Origin: a virus
Length of the DNA: 61,654 nt
Virus record (IMG/VR): IMGVR_UViG_3300047322_000377
Span: 1-61,654 of that record
Reading direction: 5' to 3' (one strand)
A program made the position numbers and the translations under genes. The notes under the pieces were generated by a model. That model did not search any database and was not told the DNA's origin. It saw nothing but the letters and a program-made list of their open reading frames with translations. Positions 1-61,654 of the stretch are shown here, one piece after another (the stretch's first letter is position 1; the number at the start of each line of letters is the position of its first letter).

Positions 1-127
1 ATAACAAGGTTATTGGCGCCGTGGTGCATGTTGTGTACGTCGCAGCCCTGGTCTATGCGGGCTTTCCGGTGCTGGCGGCCATCTACGCGGTCGTTGCCTT
101 TGCCTTCCGTATTGCAGTCGAAATCAA
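1..127. repeat. terminal direct repeat, left copy (circular contig overlap)
   Basis: The first 127 bases are identical to the last 127 (61528-61654). Joining the two copies restores a continuous membrane-protein gene. An exact overlap of 127 bases is the size left by de Bruijn assemblers run at k=127, so it is best read as an assembly overlap of a circular or circularly permuted genome rather than a biological terminal repeat. Confidence 0.9.
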
Positions 128-152
128 GCTGGCTGCGAAGGTGGCGCCATGA
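1..152 (+). CDS. small membrane protein, 3' part (gene crosses the contig junction)
   Basis: This is the C-terminal part of the protein that starts at 61356; the reading frame enters at base 3 and stops at 150-152. Across the junction the whole protein is about 107 residues. It has hydrophobic segments, one ending in GLMVFALPG and another with VVHVVYVAALVYAGFPVLA, and a short basic tail (LAAKVAP). It looks like an integral inner-membrane protein with about three segments. No family was recognised. Its stop overlaps the next start (ATGA at 149). Confidence 0.75.
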   Translation, partial: NKVIGAVVHVVYVAALVYAGFPVLAAIYAVVAFAFRIAVEIKLAAKVAP

Positions 153-322
153 CGCCAGAACAACAAAAGACCATCGACGAGCGCAAGGCCCAAGGTTTCC
201 AGGTCGTGGGCAAGGACTATGACGGTGTCGTGCGCATAACCAAGGGCGCCGACGCGCGCGTGGTGTTCAAGAACGGCAGTGAGAAGCGCGGCCAGCATTA
301 CTTGGCGAGGGCGAAGGTATGA
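149..322 (+). CDS. hypothetical protein, 57 aa
   Basis: A short soluble protein, highly charged, with KDYDGVVRITKGADARVVF in the middle. It starts at an ATG that overlaps the upstream stop by 4 bases, and its own stop overlaps the next start (319), so it is translationally coupled within the early operon. No domain was recognised. Confidence 0.7.
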   Translation: MTPEQQKTIDERKAQGFQVVGKDYDGVVRITKGADARVVFKNGSEKRGQHYLARAKV

Positions 323-780
323 ACATCGATACGGAAAAGCTGGAAGCGCTGGCGCTCGCCGCTACGCCCGGGCCTTGGTATGCGGCCAAGACAACCATGA
401 ACACCAACCCGTTCTATGTCGTGCCAGCGGTGGGCATTGGTGCGGTGGCGATGATCCCGAAGTCCAAGGTCAAGCCGTTGCAGGCGAATGCCGAATTCAT
501 CGCCGCGGCAAACCCGGCCGTAGTGCTTGAACTGTTGGCCGAGATTAAGCGCCTGAAGGCTGAGCAGCCGGGCAAGATCACCATCGACGGCAACGAGCTT
601 AAAGAGCGCGACCTGATATGGGGTGTGATCGCCAACCTTCACGGGCCGAGCAGGTATCGCAGCAAGCGCGGCACCGAGCGTTGGGTGTTGGCGCGTAACG
701 CGTTCGGCTGTGGCAGCACCGTGGCGAATGGCCTGTGCCGTGAGTTCGGCTTTGACCCTGACGAGGAACTGCGCACATGA
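319..780 (+). CDS. Ead/Ea22-like early protein, 153 aa
   Basis: Residues about 1-80 contain TPGPWYA and the segment ANAEFIAAANPAVVLELLAE. This pairing is typical of the Ead/Ea22-like family found in early regions of lambdoid and Pseudomonas phages, whose biochemical role is not settled. The last 70 residues (ITIDGNELKERDLIWGVIAN onward) form a second, separate-looking segment that may be a fused small domain. The gene is coupled by ATGA overlaps to both neighbours. Confidence 0.65.
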   Translation: MNIDTEKLEALALAATPGPWYAAKTTMNTNPFYVVPAVGIGAVAMIPKSKVKPLQANAEFIAAANPAVVLELLAEIKRLKAEQPGKITIDGNELKERDLIWGVIANLHGPSRYRSKRGTERWVLARNAFGCGSTVANGLCREFGFDPDEELRT

Positions 781-962
781 AGTGGAAAGGCTCAGGCCCG
801 CACGCCATCAGCAGGGACGAAGGCTACGTTATTGCGCGTTACCGCGTGGCCGACGTTGAATACTTTCGCCCCAGCCTGCGCGGCTCTTTCATCGGCGCCC
901 CGTTAAAGGACAAGGATGAAGCCAAGCGCGTGTGCATCGATCACCATAAGGAGGCCCGATAA
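777..962 (+). CDS. hypothetical protein, 61 aa
   Basis: A small basic protein with several aromatic residues (ARYRVADVEYFRPSLRG). It overlaps the gene before by 4 bases and the gene after by 1 base, and a plausible AAGGAGG lies just before the next start, so it belongs to the same operon. No recognisable family. Confidence 0.65.
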   Translation: MKWKGSGPHAISRDEGYVIARYRVADVEYFRPSLRGSFIGAPLKDKDEAKRVCIDHHKEAR

Positions 963-1153
963 TGGCCAGTCCCATACTGAAACACTTTGAATACGAGCAT
1001 CTAACTGAAGACCTGCATGATGTGGTCGCCCCAATTGTTTTTTTGGCAGAGAAGCTTGATCTACTGGTGCCGGATGGTCCCGAGAAGTCGGCCGGCCTGC
1101 GCAAGTTGTTGGAAGCCATGGACTGCATGATTCGCGCCGCCACCAACAACTAA
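962..1153 (+). CDS. Acb2/Tad1-type hairpin-domain protein, 63 aa (candidate anti-CBASS/anti-Thoeris sponge)
   Basis: The sequence reads as a two-helix hairpin. HFEYEHLTEDLHDVVAPI forms the first part, then FLAEKLDLLVPDGPEKSAGL, then RKLLEAMDCMIRAA. The order F/Y-x-Y-x-x-L, then LA, then P-D-G-P-E-K-S, then L-x-K-L-x-E-A and R-A-A is that of the small phage hairpin domain grouped with Acb2 and Tad1. Family members bind cyclic oligonucleotide or gcADPR signals and so block CBASS or Thoeris. That this copy binds such ligands is inference. It is the last gene before a strong terminator, with an AAGGAGG-type ribosome site. Confidence 0.65.
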   Translation: MASPILKHFEYEHLTEDLHDVVAPIVFLAEKLDLLVPDGPEKSAGLRKLLEAMDCMIRAATNN

Positions 1154-1191: not shown

Positions 1192-1225
1192 TGAGCACTA
1201 CCGACGCGGCTCCCCAGCTGCCATG

Positions 1226-1247
1226 ACCCGCACACGCGGGTTTTTTT
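1226..1247 (+). terminator. rho-independent terminator of the early operon
   Basis: Stem ACCCGC/GCGGGT with a 4-base ACAC loop, followed by seven T. It closes the plus-strand early operon that runs through the contig junction. Confidence 0.85.
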
Positions 1248-22875: not shown

Positions 22876-25800
22876 GTGGCAGAAAACCGTTTCCTCATGT
22901 CGCCCTCCGCGACTGGCTCCACTGCCACCGCGCCCGTTGTGCCTCCGGCGCCCGACATTCAGACCCTGCCACCGCGCAGCACCAGCACCGGCCCGCTGAC
23001 ATCCAGCGCAGCCGTTCTGAGCAAAGGTCTTCTGCCGCCACCTGACCTGCAACCCCTGTTCGAGAAGTATTCCGCCGAGTACGGCGTGCCGCTCAACGTG
23101 TTGTCGGCCCTGGCGCAACAGGAGTCGGGTTACGACGCCAATGCGGTCGGCGTGGAAACCCAGTGGGGCAAAGCTAAGGGCATGCTGCAAAACCTCGACA
23201 GCAACGCCAAGTCCTTGGGCATCGATCCGTTCAATGCGGAACAGTCGATTGCCGGCGCGGCCCGCCAGATGCGCGAGCGCATGGACAAGGGTTACAGCAT
23301 GGACGACGTGGTGAAAGCCCACTTCGGTGGCGACAACCGTGCGAAGTGGGGCGAGAAGACCGCCGCTTATGGTCAAGAGGTATTGGCCAAGGCCAGCATC
23401 ATCGGCGACAAGATGATGGCTGGGAAGAAGACCGCCGCGCCAGCACCGGGCAATGACCTGGCTGCGATCCAAGCCGAAATGGACGCCAAGGAACCCGGCC
23501 GCTACAAGGTGATCGATCCGGCCGACATCGCCCAGCGCGATCAAGAGCGTGCCGACATCGCCAGCGGCAAGAATGCCTTGGGCAATGCCATTGATGCTAC
23601 GCAACAGACTGCGCCGTCGCCGCTGACCCTTGCCAATCAGGACAAGGTGAACGCTGCGCGCCAGGATCAGCCGTCACCACTGACCATCGCCAACCAGTTG
23701 CGCCAAGCGGCCGGCATGGCACCGAGTGCTGACGAACCGTATTACGGCGACGTTGGCGGGGCTCAATACCTCAAGCAGTCGGCCAAGGCTGGCGCGTATG
23801 ACTTGGCTGGCGCGGGCGCGAAGATTCTGGACGCGGTCAACCCGTGGACATTTACCCCTTCCGAAATCGCGACGATCTACAAGGATCAGCCGGACAAGTA
23901 CCGTGACTACCTCGATCACAGCGCGGGCATGATCCTCAATCGGTTTGCCGAGGCCATGACCAAGAAGTCGTCCGCCACCATGGCCGACCTGAGCCAGGAA
24001 GACAAAGACAAGTACGGCAGCCTTGAATACGCCACGACCAACATGGACAAGTCGGCGCTGAAGTCGCCTGTCCGCGTGGTAGGTGATGCGGTGCGGTCGC
24101 TGCCATCGTCGGTGGCGCTGGCCGTGACAGCCTTCCTGACTCGTGGCGCATCGGTACGCGCGGAAACGGCGGCACTCGAAGCCGGGGCCAGTGCTGAAGC
24201 AGCCCGGGCCGTCGGCACGCAAGCAGCCATGAAAATGGCGTCGCGTGTAGGTGCCGGCAGTGAAGGCGGAATTGGTTACGCACAGCAGGCGCTGCAATCG
24301 CAGGCCAGCGGAGAACAAACCACCAATGCGGTGATGGATAAATCGCCGGCCTACCAGAAATTGCTGGCGCAGGGCTACGACCAAGAAACCGCGCGCGCCA
24401 AGGTGATCGCTGACGCGGCCGAAGAATCGGGTAAATACGCGGGCGTAGTCGATGCCTCCGTGAACCTGGTCGGCGGTGAATTCCTCGGCAAGATCATCAG
24501 CGAAGGCGGCAAGCTGATCCCGCGCATCATGAAGGGCGTGGCGAACGAGGGTATTACCGAAACCATCCAGAGCGGTGGCGAGCAGTTGGGGCAGAACGTT
24601 GCCCAGCGCAACATCGACCCTACCCAATCCCTGAGTGAGGGCGTCGGCGAATCGATGGTGCAGGGCGGTGTTGTTGGCGGTTTGACCGGTGGCGTTGCGG
24701 CCGGTGTACTCGGTCGTAACCACGTTGAACAACAGCAGCCACAGGCTCGGGTTGAGCCAACGGTTGGCGATCTTAACCAGGCCCAGCAAACACCGGCACC
24801 GGAAGCCGCGCCAGTGGCTGAAGCCCCGGCGCCCGCTCCCACAGGCCCGCTGACCCGTGCCGCGCAGCAGTACGTCGCGCCCGAGCCGCCAGCCGCCCCC
24901 GCTGAAGCCACACCGACTGGCGAGCCGGTCACCGTGCGCAGCTCCGACGGCGAAATGGCCGGCACCCTGCAAGACTACCAGGACCATGGCCAGGGTCAGT
25001 GGACCGCGCGCGTGCTGGCCGACGACGGCAACGCCTACGACTTCACCCAGGACGATGGCGTGCAGCTGGAGCATGGCGGTCAATCCGTTACCCCGGCAAC
25101 TGAACCGGTTCCCGCCGTCGCGCCTGCCCCGCAGGAAGACATTCCCACCCTGACCGACGTGGTGGCGCCGGAAGCCCAGGCCGCCCCCGACTATTCGTCG
25201 ATGGACGTGCCGCAGCTGCGCACCGAACTGAAGGCCATCGCCACTGCGATCAAGGCTGATCCGAAAAACAAGGTGCTGACCAAGCAACGCAGCACCATTG
25301 AAAAAGCGATCAAGACCGGCATCAACACCGCCGACAAGGCGCCAGCCGTCACCGAACTGGCCGGCGACAAGATCAACAAGGAATGGACGCGCTTCGCCGA
25401 TGACTCGGGCAGCCTGAACATCCCTCGCGCTGATATGCCGCAGATCAAGGCCGAGCACCGCGGTGCAATGACCAATTTCCTCAAGGCGCGCGGCATCACT
25501 CACACCGAGGAAGAGGTTCCGGCCAGCAGCCTGAAGCCGACGCAGGAAGAATTCAGCCCGGCCAAGGTCAAGAAAGCCTTGGGCTTCGAGGGGGGCGACC
25601 GCTCGATTCTGATTTCCAGCGATAACCATGTGCTCGACGGTCATCACCAGTGGCTGGCCAAGGTCGAGGGCGATCAACCGGTAAAAGTCATTCGCCTGAA
25701 TGCACCGATCAAGCAGCTGCTCGACGACGTGCGAGAGTTCCCGAGCGCGACCACTGCCAATGGTGCGACCGCAGCGCCAGTACCAAAGGTCGAGCCGACT

Positions 25801-28800
25801 AACAGCCTGTCGCGCACTGCCAGTTGGGCGATCCGCGACAAGGCCACCGGTGAAGTGGTCATGGAAACCTTCGATCAGAAGAAGGTCGACGCGCTCAACA
25901 CTGAAAAGTATGAAGCCGTCCCTATTCAGCAGCACTTGGCTGAAGTGAACGCCTCGATCAAGGCCGGCGATGAAACCGGCAAGATCAAGCCGGCCGAAAC
26001 AAAACCTGCAAAACCTGCATCAGAAGTACCGAAAACTGCAACGCCAGCGGCCGAACCTGCATCAAAAGCAGCTGAACCTGCATCGAAGCCACTGAGCCCG
26101 CAGCAGAAGGCCAAGGCGCGCGCCGAAGCTCAACGTCAGGCCGCGCGCGACCGCATGGGCGGGATCAAGGAAGGCGAGCAGTTCATTCCATCCTCCGATT
26201 TCAGCTACATCACCGGTGGCCAGGCCTACACCGTCGACAGCATCGACAGCAAAGGCAACGTCTACGTCAAACGCAGTGGCAGCAACAGCGGCACGCACTT
26301 GTCGCACGCCGACTTTAACGTGGCTGAGCACAAAGGCGTGACCTTCACCAAGGTGGAATCAGCGGAGACTAACACCGGGGGCGATAACGCCGGCCTCGAC
26401 AAGTCGACCTCTGATCGTGTTCCTGGCGTGCCCGGTGTCCTTGACGATATTCCTGAGAGAAACGCCATCAAGGAAAAGGGTTATCAGTCGCTCGACGTCG
26501 ATGTCCAGCGTAGCGTGCTCGCGAAGGTGCTCGGCGCCATCCATGACCCGAAGGTTTTCCGGGGAGTTGTTGAGCGTGTTCCCGTCGATATGGTGAACAT
26601 GCTCACTGGCCAGAAGCTCACGACCAAGAGTCTGCTCAACAATCCAGCGGTGCTCAGGCGCGCGCTTACCGTCCCGCTCGACCAGCCTGTACCGGTTGAC
26701 GTGGGTCGCATCATCGACGCGATGTTTTCTGCTCGCCAACCCGTAACATCTGCGCCCGCAGTAGGTGTTGGCGCCGAGTCGGTTGATGTCGGGGTATCTG
26801 AAAAAGGTAACTCCGCAGTAGACGCAAATGTAGTCCTGCAAGATGGCAATCCTTCTAATGGTTCGTCCATCATTGTACCAACAAAGGATGTCGGCACTAA
26901 ACAAAAACCAGCAGCAAACGAAAACAAGGTATTCACGGAGGATGCAGCTACAAAGGCTCGCGCACTTCTAAAGTCAAAACTCGGGCAGCTCAACAGCGGC
27001 ATTGATCCCGAGATTGTTCAGGCTGGTATCACGCTTGCGGGCTATCACATTGAAAAAGGCGCGCGCTCTTTCGCTGCCTATGCCAAGGCCATGGCTGAAG
27101 ACCTGGGCGACATGGTCAAGCCTTACCTGAAGTCGTGGTATATGGGCGTCAAGTATGACCCGCGCGCCGCTGGCTTCGATGGTATGAGCAGCGCCGCCGA
27201 GGTGGAAGGCTTCGACGTCAACGCCCCGGCAACTGAGGCAAAAAGTGCCCCAGTTCAAACCGAGCCGGCAACTATGGCAAAAACTGCCAAGGTTCAAACC
27301 GTGACCACCCCGAGCGGCCGCGAGTTCGACGTGCGCAGCAAGGTGGTCGAAGCCGACAGCCTGATCACCTCCAACAGTGCCGACGGCGCGGTTAACCCGG
27401 CCTACCCGAAAGAATTGCAGCCGCGTGACCGTTCGCGTTCGGCGTCGCTGAGCCAGATCAACGACATCGCCTCGAACCTCAACCCGCGCCTGCTCGGCGA
27501 CAGCGCCAGCGCCACCGACGGCGCCCCGATCGTTTCGCCCGAGGGCGTGGTCGAAAGCGGCAACGGCCGCACGCTGGGCATTCAACAGGCCTACGCGAAG
27601 AACACCGACGGCGCGAGCAAGTACCGCGCCTGGTTGGAGTCGCAAGGGCACGACGTCAGTGGGATGAAAGCCCCGGTGCTGGTGCGCGAGCGCGTCACGC
27701 CGATGAATGCCGACGAGCTAAAGGCCTACACCGGCGAAGCCAACGAGCGCACCACCCTGGCCCTGAGTTCCACCGAGCGCGCGGTCGCCGACGGCAAGCA
27801 GCTGGGCGACCTCCTGCACCTGTACCACGGCGGCGACGTCGCGGGCTCGGCCAACCGCGAGTTCGTCCGCGCCTTTGTCGGCGACGTGGCCAGCAAGAGC
27901 GATCGCGGCGCGCTGATGGATGGCGACGGCATGCTGTCGCAGGACGGCCGCCGTCGGATCGAGGCCGCGTTGTTGTCGGCTGCCTACGACGAGCCGAGCC
28001 TGATCAATGACCTGTTCGAGAGCACCGACAGCGACATTAAGTCGATTGGCGGCGCCTTGCTCGATGCCGCTGGCCCATGGGCGCAGATGCGCCAGGAAGC
28101 GCGCGACGGGCAAATCTCTCAGGGCGCCGACATCACGCCGAACCTGATCGAAGCGGTGAATCTGGTGCGCCAAGCGCGTGCGCAGGGCAAGTCGGTGTAT
28201 GAACTGGTCAACCAGAACGATATTTTCTCTGGCGAGCTGGATCAGGCGACCAAGGATTGGGTCGGCGTGTTCTATCGCGGTGCCAGCTTGGCCCGTGCGC
28301 GTAGCCGAGCTACAGTAGCGGACGCTCTTCTGACCTATACTCAGCTGGCCCGCGCGACGCAGCCGGGCACTAACCTGTTCGGCGACCCGGAACTGACCGG
28401 CGCCGACTTACTCCGAGGCACGCATGACAAACTTGATCGCCAAGACGCCCAAGCCAACCAGCAACAAGGCCTCTTCGGAAGCCCAAGCGCTGATGACCAA
28501 AGTGCTGGCGCACGTCGGGCAGACGGACAGCGACCAGCACCTGATGCGCGTGGTGAAGCAACGCAACAAGGGAGTGCAGTAAATGCAACAAGTCCCGGCC
28601 AGCGTGTGGAACCAAATCGCCCAGACGCAACCGCTGCAGAACCCGGACATGCGCCAGCTGTTCACGATGAGCCAGCCGCAGCTGGACGAGGCACTGGCGA
28701 GCCAGGCGCAAGCACTGAGCAAGGCCGGGCAGACGGACAGCGTGATCAACGCCTACCAACTGATGGCACCGTTGCTGGCCGAGAATCAGGCGATCAGCAA

Positions 28801-31800
28801 CTACATCAACCAAACGGGACATTCCGACCTACGCTCGGCACTGCCGGAGGTGCTGAACGCGCCGGAAGCGGTGGCGATAGCGTCACAGGAAAACCCGTTG
28901 AGCAAGAGCGAGCAGGCCACATTGTTGAAACTGCTCCTGCCACTGATGCCGACGAGTTCGGTCAACGTCTAGCGGCGCAGAAAAAAGCCGCTGGCACTGC
29001 CACGGTTCGCGGCGATCAAGCCAACATTGATAAAGCCTTGCCCCTTCTGCTTGAGCCCCAGCGCGGTGACGTGCTGAAGGCCGAGCAGCGTTACGCCGTG
29101 GGCAACGGCATGCTGCTCACCAACGGCACCGGCACCGGCAAGACCGCGAGCGGTATGGGCGTAATCGTGCGATCGATCAACGCCGGCAAGCCCAACGCTA
29201 TCGTCATTGTGCCGAGCGACAAAATCGCCTCTGACTGGGTGAAGTTTGCCAAGATGCTGGGCGTTGAGCTCAAGCAACTGACCAGCACCAGCGACAACGG
29301 CACGGACGGCCAGGTCATCACCACCTACGCCAACTTCGGCGCCAACGACAGCTTGGCCCTGCGTGACTGGGATCAGGTCGTGGCCGACGAGGCGCATTAC
29401 CTGTCGAGCAACGAGAAAGGTGAAGGCACGGGCGCGCTGGCCAAGCTGCAAGGCTTGACCGGTCACCCGGATGGCTTCTATCAGTGGGTGCGCGAGCGCA
29501 ACCCCAAGGAGTGGGGCGATTACAAAGCGGCGATGAATGCCAGCAAAGAGGCCGCCGTGCCTGACTCTGGCTTTAGCGAGCACCAGCGTGAGCAGCTTGC
29601 CGAAGCCGAAGCCAAGCAGCGCGATCTGTGGGCGGCCATCGAAGAGCCGGCCAAGAAGGCCTGGCAAGACCGTTGGGCCAAGCAGCAAGACCTACCGAAA
29701 ACCCTGTTCCTGTCGGCCACCCCGTTCGCCTACGTCAAAAGCGTGGACTACGCCGAGGGCTACCTGTTCGATTACGTACCACCGGCCGAGCGCTTCAGCA
29801 ACAAGGCGGAAATGGCCGGCTCGGCTTACAACAGCGGCGATGCGCGTGAAAAGTTTTTCATGCAGCACTTCGGCTACCGCATGCGCTACAACAAGCTGAC
29901 CGCACCGGAAGCCGGGGTTGACTCCGAACTGATGGAGCAAGGCTTTAACCAGCACCTGAAGGATATCGGCGCGCTGTCGGGCCGCCGCCTTGAAGTGCCG
30001 CACGACTACGACCGCAAGTTTGTGATGGTCGACGACGCCGTGGGGCAGAAGATCGATCAGGGCCTGGCCTACCTGCGCGAGCATGCCGACGGCAAGTACC
30101 GCAAGGTGTACGACGCGGTGATGGCGACCTTCGACTACCAGAAACGCATGTACCTGCTGGAATCGATCAAGGCCAAGGCCGTGGTGCCGATGATCAAGGA
30201 TCACATGGCGCTGGGCCGCAAAGTGGTGGTGTTCCACGACTACAACAAAGGCGGCGGCTTCGATCCGTTCAATGCCGGACTGGCCAGCATCACCGAGGCC
30301 GACACCCGGGCGCTGGCTCGCGAAGCCTTTGCCGCGCGCCCGGACATCTTCAAGAAGATGGACCTTACCGGCCTGTATTCGCCGATTGACACCCTGGCGT
30401 CGGCCTTCCCGGATGCGCTGTTCTTCAACGGCACCGTGCCCAAGGCCAAGCGCCGCGCCAATGCCGATACCTTCAACGACGACACCAGCGGAAAAGACCT
30501 GATTGTCTTGCAGTCGGACGCCGGCCGTGAAGGCGTGAGCTTGCACGACACCACTGGCCAGCACATGCGCGTGCTGATCAATCTGGGGATGCCCGGCAAG
30601 CCTGTGGCTGCGATCCAGATCGAAGGCCGCACCTACCGCACCGGGCAAGCCAGTGATGCAGCCTTTCGCTACCTGACCACCGGCACCGCCTGGGAGGCCA
30701 GCGCCTTTGCCAGCAAGATCGCCGAACGCGCCTCGACCGCTGAAAACTTGGCGCTGGGCACCGACGCGCGCGGCTTGAAACAAGCCTTCATTGACGCCTA
30801 CAACAATGCCGATGATCAGGCGCCGAGCGCCGAGGACGGCAAGGGTGGCAAGGCGCTCGACCGCGAACTGGCGGCCAACGCGACGCTGACCCCGTTCCAG
30901 AAGGCCAAGGCCTATTACTTCGCCCAACAGAAGAACAGCAAGCGCCGCGACCAGCGCGAAGGCACCGATTATTTTGCCACCCCGGAACCGGTTGGCCTGA
31001 AGATGGCCGAGTGGGCCAACATCCAACCCGGCGATCATGTACTCGAACCGTCGGCCGGGCATGGCGCGATTGCGCGGTTCTTCCCACAGCAAAGCCACGT
31101 CACCATGGTCGAGCCGAGTTATGACCTGTCGCAGCGGGCGGCCCTGGCCAACGGCAACGCGCGGATCATCAACGACACCTTCGAGTCGTTGCACCGGACC
31201 AACAAGTACGACGCCGTGGTAATGAACCCACCGTTCGGCAACGGTGGCAAGACTGCCATCGAGCACGTCGCCAAGGCGGCCCAGCACCTGCGCGAAGGCG
31301 GGCGGATCGTCGCCTTGATTCCGCGCGGCGGTTTGACCGACAAGCGCCTGGCGACCTTTCTGGAGAGCGACGAGGCGCAAAGCCTGCACCGTGTGGCGAC
31401 TTTCGACCTGCCGCCGTCGACCTTCGAGCGCGCCGGCACCGCGGTTAACACGCAAGTGGTGGTGCTGGAGAAGCACAGCAACCCGGACGACGCGCAAGGC
31501 ATCCATGCGCGCACGATCAACCTGAGCAATGCCGAGTCGACTGGCGAGCTGTTCGACCGCATCGAGCACCTGGACGTGCCGGATCGCGCGCCGAGCAGCA
31601 AGCCGGAACCCAAGCCTGAGCTGATCGAGCACGTCACCGGCAAGGGCAAGCGCCTGACCGGCGTGGTGCGCTCCGACCTGACCAAGGACGAAGCCAAGGA
31701 AATCGACCCGTACACCTTTGCCAAGGACGGCGGCTGGTTTATCCGCGCCAAGCACCTCGGCGACGGCAATCGCTTGTCGGTGGCCAGCCCGGTCGCTGAG

Positions 31801-34800
31801 CCCGCTTCGCACCAAGAAGTGCGCGACGCCATTACCCAAGGCCCGTTTGGTCCGGTGGTCAACAAGCTGATCGAGGCCGGGCACATCGTCATTCACGGCA
31901 ACGTGCAATCGCTGCCCGAAGGCCACAACGTGCGCGGCGTGCAAGCGCTGACCACCCCGGATGGCACCGTGCATCTGGTGGCGGCCAACCTGACCCCCGA
32001 AAACGCCAATGGCGTGTTGCTGCATGAAATGTTTCACAGTGGCGGCGAGCAGCTGGTCGGCTCGCAGCGCTGGGGCGAGCTGATGAAGCGCCTGGACGGT
32101 TTGCACCGCCAAGCCGAGCAATCCACCGGCAAGGCCCGCGACGTGTTCGACCGCGCCCGTGAGCGCGTGCAGCAAGCGCAGGACGCCGGCGCGGTGGCCG
32201 ACGGCATGACGCCGGAAGAGTTCGGTGCCTACGCCATTGAAGAGCATGCGCAATTGCCGACGGCGTTCCGCAAGTGGGTCGATGATCTGGTGGGCACCGT
32301 CAAGCACTGGCTGTTCAGCCGTTACGGCAAACAACTGGGCCAGGTCACCCCGGCGCAGCTGCGCGCCATGGCCAAAGATGCGCTGGTGTCGATGGCCCTG
32401 GACAAGCGCGGCGAGCTGTTCGGCAAGGCCGGCACCATGTTCAGTGTGCGCCTGGCCGATGAGTTCGCCGACATCAAGGCCGATGCCGACGCCACCAGCT
32501 TCAGCGACAAGATCGGCCCGGTAACCCTGCCGCGACGCATGGCGGATCGCTGGCGCCAACTGACCGACAACCTCGGCCTGCGTTTCCGTCAGGCGGCGAT
32601 CGACCGTTACGCGCCACTGATGCGCAATGACCACGCGCTGTACGGCGCCGACACACTGGAAGGTTCGATTGCCTCCAGTTCGTGGGTGCTGGCGCGCATG
32701 AGCCAGGCCGCAGGCGGCGCGGTGGACGCCTTGTTGCACCATGGCCGGATTTACCTCGACCCCAAGGAAAAGGTGATTGACCTGCACGACAATACCCAAG
32801 GCTTGGGCGACACCCTGAAAAAACTCGGCAGCGTGGCGGAAATGACCCGCTTTATGGGTTGGATCGCCGCCAACCGTTCCAAGCGCCTGCTCGGTGAAGG
32901 CCGGGAAAACCTGTTCACCCCGGCCGAAATCGAGGCGGGGATCAAGTTCAGCGGCGGCAAGCTGGAGAATGGCAAGAGCCGTAGCATGCTCTATCAGCAA
33001 GTATGGAAAGAGTTTCAGCAGCACCGTGACGACGTACTGGGCATCGCCGAACAATCCGGGATCATCACCCCGGAACAGCGCGCGACCTGGAGCGATGAGT
33101 TTTACGTGCCGTTTTACCGGGTGATTGATGACGAAAACCTCGGCGGCCCGTCCTCTGGCGGCGGTGGCCTGTCGCGCCAACAAGCCTACAAAAAGCTCAA
33201 GGGCGGCAAGCAGCACCTCAATGACTTGCTGGAAAACACCCTGCTGAATTTCCACCACCTGATTCAGGCCAGCCTGAAGAATCAGGCGGCCACGCAGGCC
33301 ATGGCCAACGCCGAGCAGCTGGGCATTGCCGACAAGACCACCGAAGCGCACAAGGACAAGAAGGCCAGCACCTTCGTCATGGAGAACGGGATTAAGCAGT
33401 GGTACAACGTCAACGATCCGCTGACCTTCAAGGCGGTGTCGGCGCTCTCTGACCCTGGCGTCAACACCCCCTCGCGCAAGATCATGCGCGGCTTCAAGCG
33501 CTTCTTCACCAACATGACCACCATCACCCCGCAATTTGTGGTGGCCAACGCCATCCGCGATTCGCTGGCGGCCATGGCCACCTCACCAACCAGCGCCATC
33601 CCGCTGAAGACCGCCTTCAAGGGCGCGCTGACCTACGGCAACAAGCGCGCGCGGGCGCGGATGATGGCCAGCGGCGGGGCGTTCCACTTCGGCCAGGTCT
33701 ACGGCCATGGCGCGGCGGATTTCAAGGCCTCGCTCAACGGCAGCATGCGTACCGCGCAAGTGCTCAAAGACCCGATGCTGATCCCCAACACGCTGATGAA
33801 GGCCTGGCACAAGTACCACGAAGTCACCGACTTTGCGGAGAACATGAACCGCGCCGGGATTTGGGACCATAACCAAGGCAAGGGCAAACTCAAGGCGGCG
33901 TTTGAGGCGCGCGACCTGATGGACTTCAGCGCCCACGGTGACGCCGGGATTGTGAAGTTCTTCACCGACGTGGTGCCGTTCCTCAATGCGCGCATCCAAG
34001 GATTGGACAAGCTCTATCGTTCGGGCGGCAAGCCGGCGCTGAAAACCCTGTTCGGCAAGGGCACCACCTCGGACAAGCAGGCGTTCGCCCGTTTCGCTAC
34101 CGTGGTCGGCGCGCTGACCGCCTTCAGTACGCTGCTGTACCTGCGCAACAAGGACGACGAGGACTATCGCAAGCTGGAAGACTGGCAGCGCGACACCTAC
34201 TGGCCAATCAAAATCGGCAACAGCATGTTTTTCATTCCCAAGCCGTTTGAAGTGGGCTCGATTGCCACCATGGGCGAGCGCCTGGCCGAGCAGTTTTCCG
34301 ATCCGACGGTGGGCGGCGACAAGTTTGCCAGTCGTGCCATGCACATGCTCAGTGATACTTTTGCGATGAACCCAACGCCGCAAGCGATCAAGCCGGTGCT
34401 CGAACTGGGTTACAACGAAAACACCTTTACCGGGCGGCCGATTGAAGACCAATCAATGTCGCGCCTAAGCCCAAGCCTGCGTTCGCGTCCTGATACTACG
34501 CGCCTGGCTGAAGCATCGAGCCGCGGGATCGAGAGTGCGCTCGACGTGATCGGCGCCGGCAACTCGGCCCTGTCGCCTGTGCAGATCGACCACTTGATTC
34601 AGGGTTACTTGGGCGCGGTGGGCTCGACTGCCATCGGCATGGCCGACACCTTCTGGCGCGGCGCGCAGGGAGAAGAGTTGCCGGCGCGCAGCTGGGACGA
34701 GTACCAGCCGGTGAAACGCTTCTACAAGGACTTAACCAAGGAAGACAACTACACGCGCTACGGGACCGACTTCTACAACGCCTTGAAGAAATCCGATCAG

Positions 34801-35094
34801 GCCTACGCCGACCTGCAACACCTGGCCAAGTACGGCGAGGAAGAAAAGGCCGCCGAGCTGGAACAGAAAGAGGGCGATGCGCTGGCACTGCGCAGCACCT
34901 TGAACAAGGTCAACAAGGACATGTCGCGGATCAATGCGGAAATGAAGCGGGTGCAGGTCGACAAGGAAATGGACGGCAAGACCAAGCGCCTTGAGCTGGA
35001 CCGTCTGCGCTCGATGCGCAACCTGATGACCGAGGAAATCGGCAAGGACTTGGAGCAGCAGAAGACAGCTAAGCGGGCGTCCGGGGGGCAATAA
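22876..35094 (+). CDS. giant polyvalent virion protein, 4072 aa (SLT, ParB, DdrB, helicase, methyltransferase, peptidase)
   Basis: Starts at GTG 22876 with GAGG 9 bases before. Modules in order: lytic transglycosylase (about 55-175, ALAQQESGYD with Glu83); a hydrophobic Gly/Ala-rich part (394-613); a ParB-like fold (826-954, LDGHHQWLA); a helical domain (1351-1431); a DdrB-like ParB domain (1475-1850, VVESGNGRTLG); an SF2 helicase (NGTGTGKT at 2083-2090, DEAH at 2171-2174, QIEGRTYRTGQ near 2581); an N6-adenine methyltransferase (EPSAGHGAI near 2715, NPPF at 2784-2787); an HExxH peptidase (HEMFH 3050-3054); and a long helical C-terminal part. Such polyvalent proteins are ejected with DNA to breach the wall and protect the genome. 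Residues about 1162-1345 are antisense of an HNH gene and about 1851-2030 are overprinted by two other genes. Confidence 0.88.
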   Translation: MAENRFLMSPSATGSTATAPVVPPAPDIQTLPPRSTSTGPLTSSAAVLSKGLLPPPDLQPLFEKYSAEYGVPLNVLSALAQQESGYDANAVGVETQWGKAKGMLQNLDSNAKSLGIDPFNAEQSIAGAARQMRERMDKGYSMDDVVKAHFGGDNRAKWGEKTAAYGQEVLAKASIIGDKMMAGKKTAAPAPGNDLAAIQAEMDAKEPGRYKVIDPADIAQRDQERADIASGKNALGNAIDATQQTAPSPLTLANQDKVNAARQDQPSPLTIANQLRQAAGMAPSADEPYYGDVGGAQYLKQSAKAGAYDLAGAGAKILDAVNPWTFTPSEIATIYKDQPDKYRDYLDHSAGMILNRFAEAMTKKSSATMADLSQEDKDKYGSLEYATTNMDKSALKSPVRVVGDAVRSLPSSVALAVTAFLTRGASVRAETAALEAGASAEAARAVGTQAAMKMASRVGAGSEGGIGYAQQALQSQASGEQTTNAVMDKSPAYQKLLAQGYDQETARAKVIADAAEESGKYAGVVDASVNLVGGEFLGKIISEGGKLIPRIMKGVANEGITETIQSGGEQLGQNVAQRNIDPTQSLSEGVGESMVQGGVVGGLTGGVAAGVLGRNHVEQQQPQARVEPTVGDLNQAQQTPAPEAAPVAEAPAPAPTGPLTRAAQQYVAPEPPAAPAEATPTGEPVTVRSSDGEMAGTLQDYQDHGQGQWTARVLADDGNAYDFTQDDGVQLEHGGQSVTPATEPVPAVAPAPQEDIPTLTDVVAPEAQAAPDYSSMDVPQLRTELKAIATAIKADPKNKVLTKQRSTIEKAIKTGINTADKAPAVTELAGDKINKEWTRFADDSGSLNIPRADMPQIKAEHRGAMTNFLKARGITHTEEEVPASSLKPTQEEFSPAKVKKALGFEGGDRSILISSDNHVLDGHHQWLAKVEGDQPVKVIRLNAPIKQLLDDVREFPSATTANGATAAPVPKVEPTNSLSRTASWAIRDKATGEVVMETFDQKKVDALNTEKYEAVPIQQHLAEVNASIKAGDETGKIKPAETKPAKPASEVPKTATPAAEPASKAAEPASKPLSPQQKAKARAEAQRQAARDRMGGIKEGEQFIPSSDFSYITGGQAYTVDSIDSKGNVYVKRSGSNSGTHLSHADFNVAEHKGVTFTKVESAETNTGGDNAGLDKSTSDRVPGVPGVLDDIPERNAIKEKGYQSLDVDVQRSVLAKVLGAIHDPKVFRGVVERVPVDMVNMLTGQKLTTKSLLNNPAVLRRALTVPLDQPVPVDVGRIIDAMFSARQPVTSAPAVGVGAESVDVGVSEKGNSAVDANVVLQDGNPSNGSSIIVPTKDVGTKQKPAANENKVFTEDAATKARALLKSKLGQLNSGIDPEIVQAGITLAGYHIEKGARSFAAYAKAMAEDLGDMVKPYLKSWYMGVKYDPRAAGFDGMSSAAEVEGFDVNAPATEAKSAPVQTEPATMAKTAKVQTVTTPSGREFDVRSKVVEADSLITSNSADGAVNPAYPKELQPRDRSRSASLSQINDIASNLNPRLLGDSASATDGAPIVSPEGVVESGNGRTLGIQQAYAKNTDGASKYRAWLESQGHDVSGMKAPVLVRERVTPMNADELKAYTGEANERTTLALSSTERAVADGKQLGDLLHLYHGGDVAGSANREFVRAFVGDVASKSDRGALMDGDGMLSQDGRRRIEAALLSAAYDEPSLINDLFESTDSDIKSIGGALLDAAGPWAQMRQEARDGQISQGADITPNLIEAVNLVRQARAQGKSVYELVNQNDIFSGELDQATKDWVGVFYRGASLARARSRATVADALLTYTQLARATQPGTNLFGDPELTGADLLRGTHDKLDRQDAQANQQQGLFGSPSADDQSAGARRADGQRPAPDARGEATQQGSAVNATSPGQRVEPNRPDATAAEPGHAPAVHDEPAAAGRGTGEPGASTEQGRADGQRDQRLPTDGTVAGRESGDQQLHQPNGTFRPTLGTAGGAERAGSGGDSVTGKPVEQERAGHIVETAPATDADEFGQRLAAQKKAAGTATVRGDQANIDKALPLLLEPQRGDVLKAEQRYAVGNGMLLTNGTGTGKTASGMGVIVRSINAGKPNAIVIVPSDKIASDWVKFAKMLGVELKQLTSTSDNGTDGQVITTYANFGANDSLALRDWDQVVADEAHYLSSNEKGEGTGALAKLQGLTGHPDGFYQWVRERNPKEWGDYKAAMNASKEAAVPDSGFSEHQREQLAEAEAKQRDLWAAIEEPAKKAWQDRWAKQQDLPKTLFLSATPFAYVKSVDYAEGYLFDYVPPAERFSNKAEMAGSAYNSGDAREKFFMQHFGYRMRYNKLTAPEAGVDSELMEQGFNQHLKDIGALSGRRLEVPHDYDRKFVMVDDAVGQKIDQGLAYLREHADGKYRKVYDAVMATFDYQKRMYLLESIKAKAVVPMIKDHMALGRKVVVFHDYNKGGGFDPFNAGLASITEADTRALAREAFAARPDIFKKMDLTGLYSPIDTLASAFPDALFFNGTVPKAKRRANADTFNDDTSGKDLIVLQSDAGREGVSLHDTTGQHMRVLINLGMPGKPVAAIQIEGRTYRTGQASDAAFRYLTTGTAWEASAFASKIAERASTAENLALGTDARGLKQAFIDAYNNADDQAPSAEDGKGGKALDRELAANATLTPFQKAKAYYFAQQKNSKRRDQREGTDYFATPEPVGLKMAEWANIQPGDHVLEPSAGHGAIARFFPQQSHVTMVEPSYDLSQRAALANGNARIINDTFESLHRTNKYDAVVMNPPFGNGGKTAIEHVAKAAQHLREGGRIVALIPRGGLTDKRLATFLESDEAQSLHRVATFDLPPSTFERAGTAVNTQVVVLEKHSNPDDAQGIHARTINLSNAESTGELFDRIEHLDVPDRAPSSKPEPKPELIEHVTGKGKRLTGVVRSDLTKDEAKEIDPYTFAKDGGWFIRAKHLGDGNRLSVASPVAEPASHQEVRDAITQGPFGPVVNKLIEAGHIVIHGNVQSLPEGHNVRGVQALTTPDGTVHLVAANLTPENANGVLLHEMFHSGGEQLVGSQRWGELMKRLDGLHRQAEQSTGKARDVFDRARERVQQAQDAGAVADGMTPEEFGAYAIEEHAQLPTAFRKWVDDLVGTVKHWLFSRYGKQLGQVTPAQLRAMAKDALVSMALDKRGELFGKAGTMFSVRLADEFADIKADADATSFSDKIGPVTLPRRMADRWRQLTDNLGLRFRQAAIDRYAPLMRNDHALYGADTLEGSIASSSWVLARMSQAAGGAVDALLHHGRIYLDPKEKVIDLHDNTQGLGDTLKKLGSVAEMTRFMGWIAANRSKRLLGEGRENLFTPAEIEAGIKFSGGKLENGKSRSMLYQQVWKEFQQHRDDVLGIAEQSGIITPEQRATWSDEFYVPFYRVIDDENLGGPSSGGGGLSRQQAYKKLKGGKQHLNDLLENTLLNFHHLIQASLKNQAATQAMANAEQLGIADKTTEAHKDKKASTFVMENGIKQWYNVNDPLTFKAVSALSDPGVNTPSRKIMRGFKRFFTNMTTITPQFVVANAIRDSLAAMATSPTSAIPLKTAFKGALTYGNKRARARMMASGGAFHFGQVYGHGAADFKASLNGSMRTAQVLKDPMLIPNTLMKAWHKYHEVTDFAENMNRAGIWDHNQGKGKLKAAFEARDLMDFSAHGDAGIVKFFTDVVPFLNARIQGLDKLYRSGGKPALKTLFGKGTTSDKQAFARFATVVGALTAFSTLLYLRNKDDEDYRKLEDWQRDTYWPIKIGNSMFFIPKPFEVGSIATMGERLAEQFSDPTVGGDKFASRAMHMLSDTFAMNPTPQAIKPVLELGYNENTFTGRPIEDQSMSRLSPSLRSRPDTTRLAEASSRGIESALDVIGAGNSALSPVQIDHLIQGYLGAVGSTAIGMADTFWRGAQGEELPARSWDEYQPVKRFYKDLTKEDNYTRYGTDFYNALKKSDQAYADLQHLAKYGEEEKAAELEQKEGDALALRSTLNKVNKDMSRINAEMKRVQVDKEMDGKTKRLELDRLRSMRNLMTEEIGKDLEQQKTAKRASGGQ
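26359..26841 (-). CDS. HNH homing endonuclease, antisense inside the giant gene, 160 aa
   Basis: The minus strand encodes a complete nuclease. It has a zinc-finger N-terminus (CVYCG then YCGRRCYG), APEHRWIVEQTLGRELLASE, the HNH core HVHHIDGNTLNNSPENLRVM, then a helix-turn-helix (LFLDGVSLRNIVKDTGHARN). The TTG start at 26841 has AGAAGG 9 bases upstream; an in-frame extension to 26904 is possible. The opposite strand stays open, so the giant protein is translated through it. The giant-frame text here (KVLGAIHDPKVFRGVVERVP) is what the reverse of an HNH core gives. Confidence 0.82.
   Translation of the reverse strand: MQDYICVYCGVTFFRYPDINRLGANTYCGRRCYGLASRKHRVDDATHVNRYRLVERDGKRAPEHRWIVEQTLGRELLASEHVHHIDGNTLNNSPENLRVMDGAEHLREHATLDIDVERLITLFLDGVSLRNIVKDTGHARNTIRGRLVEAGVIAPGVSLR
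28424..28582 (+). CDS. out-of-frame nested gene 1 inside the giant gene, 52 aa
   Basis: ATG 28424 has CCGAGG 7 bases upstream and the frame is +1 to the giant gene. The product begins MTNLIAKTPKPTSNKASSEA and ends QHLMRVVKQRNKGVQ, a normal-looking basic helical protein. Its TAA is directly followed by the ATG of the second nested gene. The giant frame over the same bases is low-complexity linker (DQSAGARRADGQRPAPDARG). Function unknown. Confidence 0.65.
   Translation: MTNLIAKTPKPTSNKASSEAQALMTKVLAHVGQTDSDQHLMRVVKQRNKGVQ
28583..28972 (+). CDS. out-of-frame nested gene 2 inside the giant gene, 129 aa
   Basis: GGGAG lies 8 bases before ATG 28583. Third codon positions are mostly G or C in this frame, as in the rest of the phage, while the giant frame here reads as G/A/T/R/Q/P linker. 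The protein is balanced and helical (QLFTMSQPQLDEALASQAQA, INAYQLMAPLLAENQAISNY, SEQATLLKLLLPLM). It looks like a conserved soluble or virion protein; no family was recognised. The giant frame is presumably the secondary reading here, joining DdrB-like and helicase modules. Confidence 0.72.
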   Translation: MQQVPASVWNQIAQTQPLQNPDMRQLFTMSQPQLDEALASQAQALSKAGQTDSVINAYQLMAPLLAENQAISNYINQTGHSDLRSALPEVLNAPEAVAIASQENPLSKSEQATLLKLLLPLMPTSSVNV

Positions 35095-59955: not shown

Positions 59956-60275
59956 ACAAGAAAGACGCCAAACTGGTCGCCGAAACCATCACCGTCGAGC
60001 AGCTGGCCGCGATGTTCGAGCGCGCCAAGACCTCGATTGTCGACTGGAAGAAGCCGAGCCACGTCAACCCGTCGATCAGCCTCGGCGCGGCGTGGAACAT
60101 CTTCTACCCATGGTTTTTGAAGAGTAAGCGCCACTGGCACCCCAATGTCACAAATGCGGTGTGGGTGTTCGGCGACTACCTGGACGACGACCTGAAGCCG
60201 GACAAGAAGAGCAACCACCGCAAGCCGGCCGTTGACGTGTTCCACCAAGAGCCCATCTTTGAGGTGCTGCCATGA
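59952..60275 (+). CDS. hypothetical protein, 107 aa
   Basis: The start 59952 overlaps the upstream stop. Helical N-terminus (KDAKLVAETITVEQLAAMFE) and an aromatic middle (GAAWNIFYPWFLKSKRHWHP). No family recognised. Confidence 0.58.
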   Translation: MNKKDAKLVAETITVEQLAAMFERAKTSIVDWKKPSHVNPSISLGAAWNIFYPWFLKSKRHWHPNVTNAVWVFGDYLDDDLKPDKKSNHRKPAVDVFHQEPIFEVLP

Positions 60276-60784
60276 GCGAATTTGAACGAGCCAAGGCCTT
60301 TTGTATCGCTGCGCATTGCGCCGTGGGCCAGAAGCGCAAGTACACGGGGGAGGATTATTACCATCACCCCTTCGAGGTGGCTGACCTGGTGCTGGCGCAT
60401 GCTGCCCATATCAGTGACGCCATGCTGATCGCCGCCGTACTGCACGACGTGGTGGAAGATACGCAGGTGCCGCTGTCGGTGATCGACGAGCAGTTCGGGC
60501 CTATCGTTGCCGCCTACGTCGAGCAGCTGACCGACGTGTCAAAGCCGGAAGACGGTAACCGCCGCGCACGGAAAGCTATCGACCGAGCGCATACCGCTGC
60601 CGCCAGCCCCGCAGCCAAGACCATCAAGCTGGCCGACCTGATCAGCAACACGCGAAGCATCGTCGAGCGCGATCCTAAGTTCGCCGCCACCTACCTGAAG
60701 GAAAAGCGTTTGTTGCTTCAAGTGCTGAGAGAAGGCGACCCGGCACTGTACAAAATAGCGGACGCCTTGGCCTATTCTGCGTAA
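60272..60784 (+). CDS. MESH1/SpoT-like HD-domain hydrolase, 170 aa
   Basis: YYHHPFEVADLVLAH (His31/His32), then LIAAVLHDVVEDTQ (His58-Asp59 and Glu62-Asp63), then AKTIKLADLISNTRSI with the downstream Asp. This is the HD-ED arrangement of RelA/SpoT and MESH1 hydrolases, which remove pyrophosphate from (p)ppGpp. No synthetase domain is present. It may lower host alarmone during infection; activity is inference. Confidence 0.8.
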   Translation: MSEFERAKAFCIAAHCAVGQKRKYTGEDYYHHPFEVADLVLAHAAHISDAMLIAAVLHDVVEDTQVPLSVIDEQFGPIVAAYVEQLTDVSKPEDGNRRARKAIDRAHTAAASPAAKTIKLADLISNTRSIVERDPKFAATYLKEKRLLLQVLREGDPALYKIADALAYSA

Positions 60785-60819
60785 CACCATAACAACCAAT
60801 AAGCACGGAGCATTTCCCA

Positions 60820-61359
60820 TTGATGAAAGAATCGAGGCAACGGCAATTGCTGGAAGGTCAAAGCAGCGTGGCGCGCAAGGTGTTCGAGGGCGTGCCGATC
60901 CAAGAGGCATGGCATGAGAAGGAAATCATCACGGCCGTGCGCACCGCTGGCGTGACCATCGCCGCCCATACCGTGCGTGGTTGCCTGCTGGACATGAAAG
61001 ATGTCGGCCTGATCAAAGAGCCGCACAAGGGTATGTACCAGCGCGAGCCGGTGCAAAAATTCCTGCGCCTGCCTGAAGTTAAAGACACGCTGGCCATTCA
61101 ACAAATCACTATCGAGCCGACCATGACCGCAAAGACCTACACCCCAGCCAAAGCCCAAACCGTCACCCCGCTGGACCTGCTCGGCACCGTCGCCACTGAG
61201 CTGACGCTGTTGGCCAGTGAGTTCGGCGAGCGCCTGCGTGCCCTGGCCCTGCGTGTGGAAGAGGTGGCGTTGTCGGTTGAGGCGCAGCGTGAGGACGATG
61301 CCAAGATCATCGCCAAGGCCAACCAGCTGAAGGACTTGCTGAAGGGGTTCGGCGAATGA
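60820..61359 (+). CDS. hypothetical early protein, 179 aa
   Basis: TTG 60820 or ATG 60823; GGAG at 60807-60810 fits the TTG best. N-terminal winged-helix-like part (ARKVFEGVPIQEAWHEKEII, then RGCLLDMKDVGLIKEPHKGM) and a C-terminal coiled coil (LRALALRVEEVALSVEAQRE). It could be a DNA-binding regulator. Overlaps the last gene by 4 bases. Confidence 0.6.
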   Translation: MMKESRQRQLLEGQSSVARKVFEGVPIQEAWHEKEIITAVRTAGVTIAAHTVRGCLLDMKDVGLIKEPHKGMYQREPVQKFLRLPEVKDTLAIQQITIEPTMTAKTYTPAKAQTVTPLDLLGTVATELTLLASEFGERLRALALRVEEVALSVEAQREDDAKIIAKANQLKDLLKGFGE

Positions 61360-61654
61360 ACCGCCATCAAATAATCATGCGCCTGGTGGATGCCTCGATG
61401 ATCGCGTGCCTAATCCTTGGTAACGCAGACGTGAAGACATTCGTATTCTGGATTGTTTGCTGCATGGTGGGCCTGATGGTTTTCGCTCTACCCGGCATCA
61501 CGCCAGAGCTGGCTAAGCAGATGGGGGATAACAAGGTTATTGGCGCCGTGGTGCATGTTGTGTACGTCGCAGCCCTGGTCTATGCGGGCTTTCCGGTGCT
61601 GGCGGCCATCTACGCGGTCGTTGCCTTTGCCTTCCGTATTGCAGTCGAAATCAA
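61356..61654 (+). CDS. small membrane protein, 5' part (continues at base 128 after the junction)
   Basis: N-terminal part of the junction-spanning protein (MNRHQIIMRLVDASMIACLI, then FVFWIVCCMVGLMVFALPGI). The frame runs off the contig end and continues in phase at the beginning after the duplicated 127 bases. Confidence 0.75.
   Translation, partial: MNRHQIIMRLVDASMIACLILGNADVKTFVFWIVCCMVGLMVFALPGITPELAKQMGDNKVIGAVVHVVYVAALVYAGFPVLAAIYAVVAFAFRIAVEI
61528..61654. repeat. terminal direct repeat, right copy
   Basis: Identical to bases 1-127; see the left copy. Counting it once gives a genome of 61,527 bases. Confidence 0.9.

Follow-up and report, generated by a model that had tools for sequence, protein, structure and literature searches.

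Introduction

Acb2, represented by Vs.4 of phage T4 and p26/gp24 of a Pseudomonas phage, is an anti-CBASS sponge for cyclic oligonucleotides, a small stand-alone phage protein of 88-94 amino acids that belongs to the Acb2/Tad1 hairpin family (PF24729). It forms homo-hexamers, binds cyclic di- or trinucleotides and blocks CBASS, and its residue K26 touches the phosphates of the ligand. In the T4 protein, Y8 is the ligand tyrosine, and the Y8A substitution disrupts binding (PMC12657218, PMC12657230); T68M lowers it (PMC12657230). The published Acb2 protomer has one short N-terminal helix followed by two long antiparallel helices (PMC12043709, PMC10419184), and Acb2 has been described as relatively rare, its occurrence being limited to specific phage groups (PMC11722364). 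The C-terminal helices of Tad1 (Thoeris anti-defence 1) also match a PF24729-type profile. Tad1 additionally possesses an N-terminal antiparallel β-sheet domain, and two of its protomers jointly form the gcADPR pocket, to which they contribute loops, the C-terminal tail and helices (PMC12043709).

Here we describe a 63-residue protein, encoded near one end of a 61,654-nucleotide viral stretch (hereafter the window), which a sequence-only reading had put forward as a candidate Acb2/Tad1-type anti-defence sponge. Its closest relatives among described proteins are stand-alone PF24729 hairpin proteins of phrog_1454, such as those at the IMG/VR places L084-L163 and the 'Acb2 homolog 43' of PDB entry 9ptq, for which a literature search on 9PTQ and 'Acb2 homolog' returned nothing beyond a review. 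The Acb4 and Tad2 sponges would be at most functional analogs: Acb4 has been described as without structural homology to Acb2, Tad1 or Tad2 (PMC11722364), and Tad2 has β-strands (PMC12043709), whereas the model of the candidate has none.

Results

The candidate gene and its locus

The open reading frame of the candidate, whose full product is MASPILKHFEYEHLTEDLHDVVAPIVFLAEKLDLLVPDGPEKSAGLRKLLEAMDCMIRAATNN, is a genuine gene that starts with an ATG and ends in a stop codon just where the sequence-only reading had placed them, and the motifs named there are present as well, PDGPEKS at residues 37-43 and RKLLEAM at residues 47-53. Its ATG shares bases with the stop codon of the preceding gene (TAATG). 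The gene was correctly placed at the end of an operon, as it closes a tightly packed run of genes on the + strand that is followed by an intrinsic terminator (Table 1).

Table 1. Features of the candidate gene and its surroundings, in window coordinates
Feature	Position	Strand	Basis and remarks
Ead/Ea22-like accessory gene, same gene run as the candidate	319..780	+	PHROG match; Pfam match at E 4e-5, under the cut-off
Preceding gene, 61 aa, phrog_17150, function unannotated	777..962	+	ORF list, PHROG scan; stop overlaps candidate start
Shine-Dalgarno-like GGAGG	949..953	+	Direct sequence reading; ATG of the candidate 8 nt downstream
Candidate ORF, family A protein, 63 aa	962..1153	+	ORF list; ATG at 962, stop 1151-1153
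Candidate codons 37-52, PDGPEKSAGLRKLLEA, loop and first half of the last helix	1070..1117	+	Column counts, hhalign, hmmsearch
Intrinsic terminator 3' of the candidate, GACCCGCACACGCGGGTTTTTTT	1225..1247	+	Terminator scan

An exact 127-bp direct repeat occupies the two ends of the window (1-127 and 61528-61654), which indicates a probably complete genome, either circular or terminally redundant. Given this repeat, the gene run spans the contig ends, with 60272..61654 joined to 1..1153. Within it, at 60272-60784 (+), lies a gene for a 170-residue HD-domain protein that resembles the small alarmone hydrolases MESH1/HDDC3 and the hydrolase domains of RelA/SpoT (top PDB match, E 2e-14), so that, across the join, the candidate's packed run may include another protein that acts on a nucleotide signal. 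On the other side, an HNH endonuclease gene (1343-1918, +; phrog_953, E 2e-60) separates the candidate from the gene for the terminase small subunit. The terminase and portal genes of the window have about 68% DNA identity to those of the Pseudomonas phages Skulduggery and Itty13 and of the Burkholderia phage BcepIL02 group, and about one fifth of the genome is a single uninterrupted frame of 4072 codons (22876-35094, +).

A widespread and strongly conserved family

In the PHROG scan, the candidate fell into phrog_5120/phrog_1761, both without assigned function and here called family A. Relatives were found by tblastn in 347 phage records and 24 plasmid records, at no fewer than 273 places in IMG/VR and at no fewer than 92 in GTDB species genomes, with identities to the candidate of mostly 35-68% over most of its length in the phage and IMG/VR sets; the numbers of phage and IMG/VR relatives place the gene well above chance. 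Nearly all annotated copies are labelled 'hypothetical protein', and chromosomal copies are frequently flanked by phage genes. Proteobacteria, Actinobacteria, Cyanobacteria and Chloroflexi all include genomes that encode the family's core, and members are present in further groups as well.

A 38-row alignment gave the consensus MxSPIxKYFEYxHLPxxLQxVSKPIxxLAxxMDxxLPDGPEKSAGLRKLLEAKDCFVRAxL, from which the candidate deviates by S22V, K23A and K53M; a member close to the consensus is gp111 of Yoloswag. H13, L14, E41, L46, R47, L49 and E51 are unchanged in all 50 aligned members, and F9, L18, D38, K48, A52, D54 and R58 have at most one exception each among the 50. Codons 37-52 of the candidate correspond to the near-invariant core of the family, which in the hhalign and hmmsearch comparisons was also the portion alignable to PF24729.

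Such conservation allows a different reading, in which the protein has the fold of Acb2/Tad1 by common descent and is no sponge; instead, its highly conserved PDGPEKSAGLRKLLEAKDC surface would bind a protein partner of host or phage origin. The invariance of E41, L46, R47, L49 and E51 would be unusual for a host-driven arms race, a single core extends across genomes of four named phyla, and several residues linked to ligand binding are lost (R47 in place of T; V22-A23 in the candidate). A conserved core would, however, also be compatible with a conserved ligand across many hosts, and no partner gene recurs adjacent to family A; we consider this alternative unlikely.

Two members have unusual forms. 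In Brevibacterium phage AGM9, the family A gene (L171, 2606-2707) has the 51-bp LPDGPEKSTALRKLLE segment twice in tandem, a natural insertion within the core helix that is marked as repeated sequence in the record; AGM1 and AGM12 gave shorter matches that are apparently single-copy for this segment. In Cellulosimicrobium phage DS1 (L170, 2087-2674), the hairpin forms the C-terminus of a 195-residue protein whose N-terminal part resembles a C2H2 zinc finger and which is annotated as 'sliding clamp DNA polymerase'. The first 78 columns of phrog_1761 were considered as a fused domain and rejected, as members begin at or near the hairpin and have no conserved second domain. Pfam matches of family A members to the 'Occludin homology domain', a label that has been copied into some phage annotations, were weak (best E 0.006) and were treated as false.

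Sequence comparison with PF24729

The profile search for Acb2/Tad1 type gave a mixed outcome. The candidate scored 12.8 bits (E 0.14) against PF24729 in the Pfam scan, under the curated cut-off of 27 bits, which was reached by none of the family A members scanned; the highest score, 22.7 bits, belonged to the AGM9 copy, in which the segment is doubled. No match was obtained in NCBIfam or PADLOC, and a single-sequence PDB search returned nothing relevant. The candidate did match phrog_1454 in the PHROG scan (E 3.3e-4, database-scaled), as did other family A members (E 3.7e-5, 8.9e-5 and 1.4e-4). This is the PHROG of PF24729 proteins, including L085, L124 and L153 (E to 1e-28) and matched at 7e-4 by T4 Vs.4, which itself scores 71 bits against PF24729, and the match therefore supports the link to the Acb2/Tad1 hairpin.

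All PF24729 comparisons were made with real sequences, which replaced a consensus query (102.8 bits versus Pfam). Aligned by hhalign with 35-36 PF24729 proteins, family A gave probabilities of 81-90% and, taken as one comparison, E-values of 1.8e-6 to 1.2e-5. The score was 32.7; 200 column-shuffled controls did not exceed 19.0, and reversed profiles gave 7.8. In reciprocal hmmsearch runs the top scores were 21.7 and 19.0 bits, the best of 5000 shuffled sequences reaching 8.9 and 9.4 bits, respectively; these shuffle controls leave general helix periodicity uncorrected. The alignment is gapless across LA-x7-PD..EKS....KL.EA, and the F-x-Y elements pair after a four-residue gap. Searched against 23 viral records that carry PF24729, the family A profile produced two matches, both at the coordinates of the PF24729 genes, and a fragment of 9ptq scored 13.7 bits (best of 5000 shuffles, 11.4). 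Directly against T4 Vs.4 and Acb2 p26, the profile scored about 0 bits, and by sequence the link from family A to these two proteins passes via PF24729 intermediates. PF24729 was absent from the 27 family A records searched (positive control, 7/7); the two record sets came from separate searches, probably with different hosts, and this non-overlap is weak evidence.

The resemblance might instead reflect convergence of amphipathic helical hairpins with unrelated functions, since small helical proteins readily match one another, the PF24729 score lies under the cut-off and a fold search of the PDB returned neither Acb2 nor Tad1. The database-scaled E-values of 3.3e-4 to 3.7e-5 against phrog_1454, the scores far over those of all shuffles, the ungapped common stretch with an F-x-Y element ahead of the first long helix and the prominence of PF24729 proteins in the fold search of the viral library make this improbable. 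Family A is likely to be a distant homolog of the Acb2/Tad1 hairpin domain. On these sequence comparisons it is a distant sister family, rather than a straightforward Acb2, and its significant profile similarity places it in an Acb2/Tad1 hairpin superfamily drawn wider than the Pfam cut-off, though outside formal PF24729 membership; of the Acb2/Tad1-type identity proposed for the candidate, the remote homology thus stood and the straightforward assignment did not.

Predicted structure

With the family alignment as input, AlphaFold2 modelled the candidate as an all-helical monomer with helices at residues 4-9, 16-35 and 40-61 (pLDDT 95.6), which agrees with the two-helix pattern noted from the sequence and adds a short N-terminal helix. 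The order of helices is that of the published Acb2 protomer, and a PF24729 control modelled likewise had helices at 4-7, 17-38 and 43-66. From the compactness of the model and its short loop, the long helices would pack antiparallel. When the candidate model was searched by Foldseek against a viral model library, the top matches belonged to family A, and most of those below carried the label 'Acb2/Tad1 hairpin domain-containing' (TM up to 0.74). A Foldseek search of the PDB with the same model did not recover Acb2/Tad1, and the PF24729 control ranked T4 Vs.4 first with a weak E of 0.36. The fold evidence from these models is thus supportive in the viral library and negative in the PDB.

Residues linked to ligand binding

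The ligand tyrosine Y8 of T4 Acb2 aligns with Y11 of the candidate (hhalign and the T4/PF24729 alignment), a position that is Y or F in 46 of the 50 family A members. T68 aligns with R47, an Arg in every one of them. Residues S22-K23 of family A, which we take to be the near-equivalent of K26, are V22-A23 in the candidate. Three features, the Arg in place of T68, an almost constant R58 and the absence of S22/K23 from the candidate, suggest either a ligand other than 3',3'-cGAMP or a mode of binding unlike that in T4 Acb2. Judged from these substitutions, the ligand specificity of the candidate is probably unlike that of T4 Acb2, and binding by this particular member may be weakened or lost.

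Genomic neighborhoods

The 151 immediate neighbors of the IMG/VR relatives fell into 116 sequence clusters, with Pfam matches scattered over terminases, portals, head-tail connectors, integrases, lysis genes and methylases. No recurring partner family was found beside family A by neighbor clustering and Pfam, and a conserved gene partner was rejected on these grounds. Varied neighbors without a recurring partner are the pattern of a stand-alone accessory gene, which fits an anti-defence role without proving it and argues against an obligate structural one. As the relatives occupy such varied contexts, the operon-end position of the candidate adds little to the anti-defence reading.

The candidate could also be an accessory protein of packaging or lysis, given that in the window and in several other genomes it lies beside terminase, portal, head or lysis genes. 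In the window it adjoins the HNH and TerS genes, the copy of Vibrio phage martha 12B12 sits between TerS and TerL, copies of Acinetobacter and Vibrio phages are near a capsid gene and others near holin/Rz genes, and prophage copies are close to terminase, portal and Rz. The contexts are nevertheless diverse, with small accessory gene regions and nucleotide-metabolism genes among them and the many clusters noted above, and in the window a terminator separates the candidate from the TerS side. A packaging or lysis role is quite improbable.

Discussion

The candidate resembles Acb2 as a small stand-alone phage protein whose F-x-Y tyrosine aligns with that of the T4 protein and whose last-helix core can be aligned via PF24729 intermediates, and differs from it in its shorter chain and inter-helix loop, in the replacement of T68 by Arg and in a direct profile score near zero. 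The stand-alone PF24729 proteins are closer, with the ungapped stretch, the F-x-Y motif and a comparable length in common. Compared with them, family A is about four residues shorter ahead of the first long helix, has R47 for T, C55 for W and DCFVRA for WANAAIAR, and scores under the Pfam cut-off. A Tad1-like architecture was rejected, since the 63-residue, all-helical model has no β-domain. Because this domain is missing, T68 is an invariant Arg and the homology is remote, the anti-defence sponge of the sequence-only reading is a role that we infer.

What was observed comprises the gene, its family, a remote relationship to PF24729 and, in the predicted monomer, a helix layout of Acb2 type. 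From the sequence comparisons and the model, we give a chance somewhat short of even to the reading that the candidate is a divergent sponge that acts as Acb2 does, probably with a ligand different from that of T4 Acb2. On this reading, family A is a divergent sister of the Acb2/Tad1 hairpin family and the candidate a stand-alone member with three helices; its protomers would associate through both long helices and form a small oligomer. Pockets between protomers could capture an immune signal of nucleotide type that the infected host makes, and with this signal captured the defence effector would stay untriggered, which would amount to an anti-defence role. That family A as a whole is a so far unrecognised branch of the Acb2/Tad1-type sponges, very widespread and directed at another messenger, with the change from T68 to Arg marking a new specificity, is possible and decidedly tentative.

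In summary, family A is a compact family with distant homology to Acb2 that occurs in phages and in genomes of several bacterial phyla, nearly always as a 'hypothetical protein', and its size of about 62 residues makes it readily testable. If its members sequester nucleotide signals, it would rank among the most widespread sponge families, and the invariant motif would predict one common ligand; were it a sponge branch for another messenger, hairpin sponges would be far commoner than the 'relatively rare' Acb2. Family A might also be relevant to Panoptes and other guard systems, which respond to the activity of sponges.
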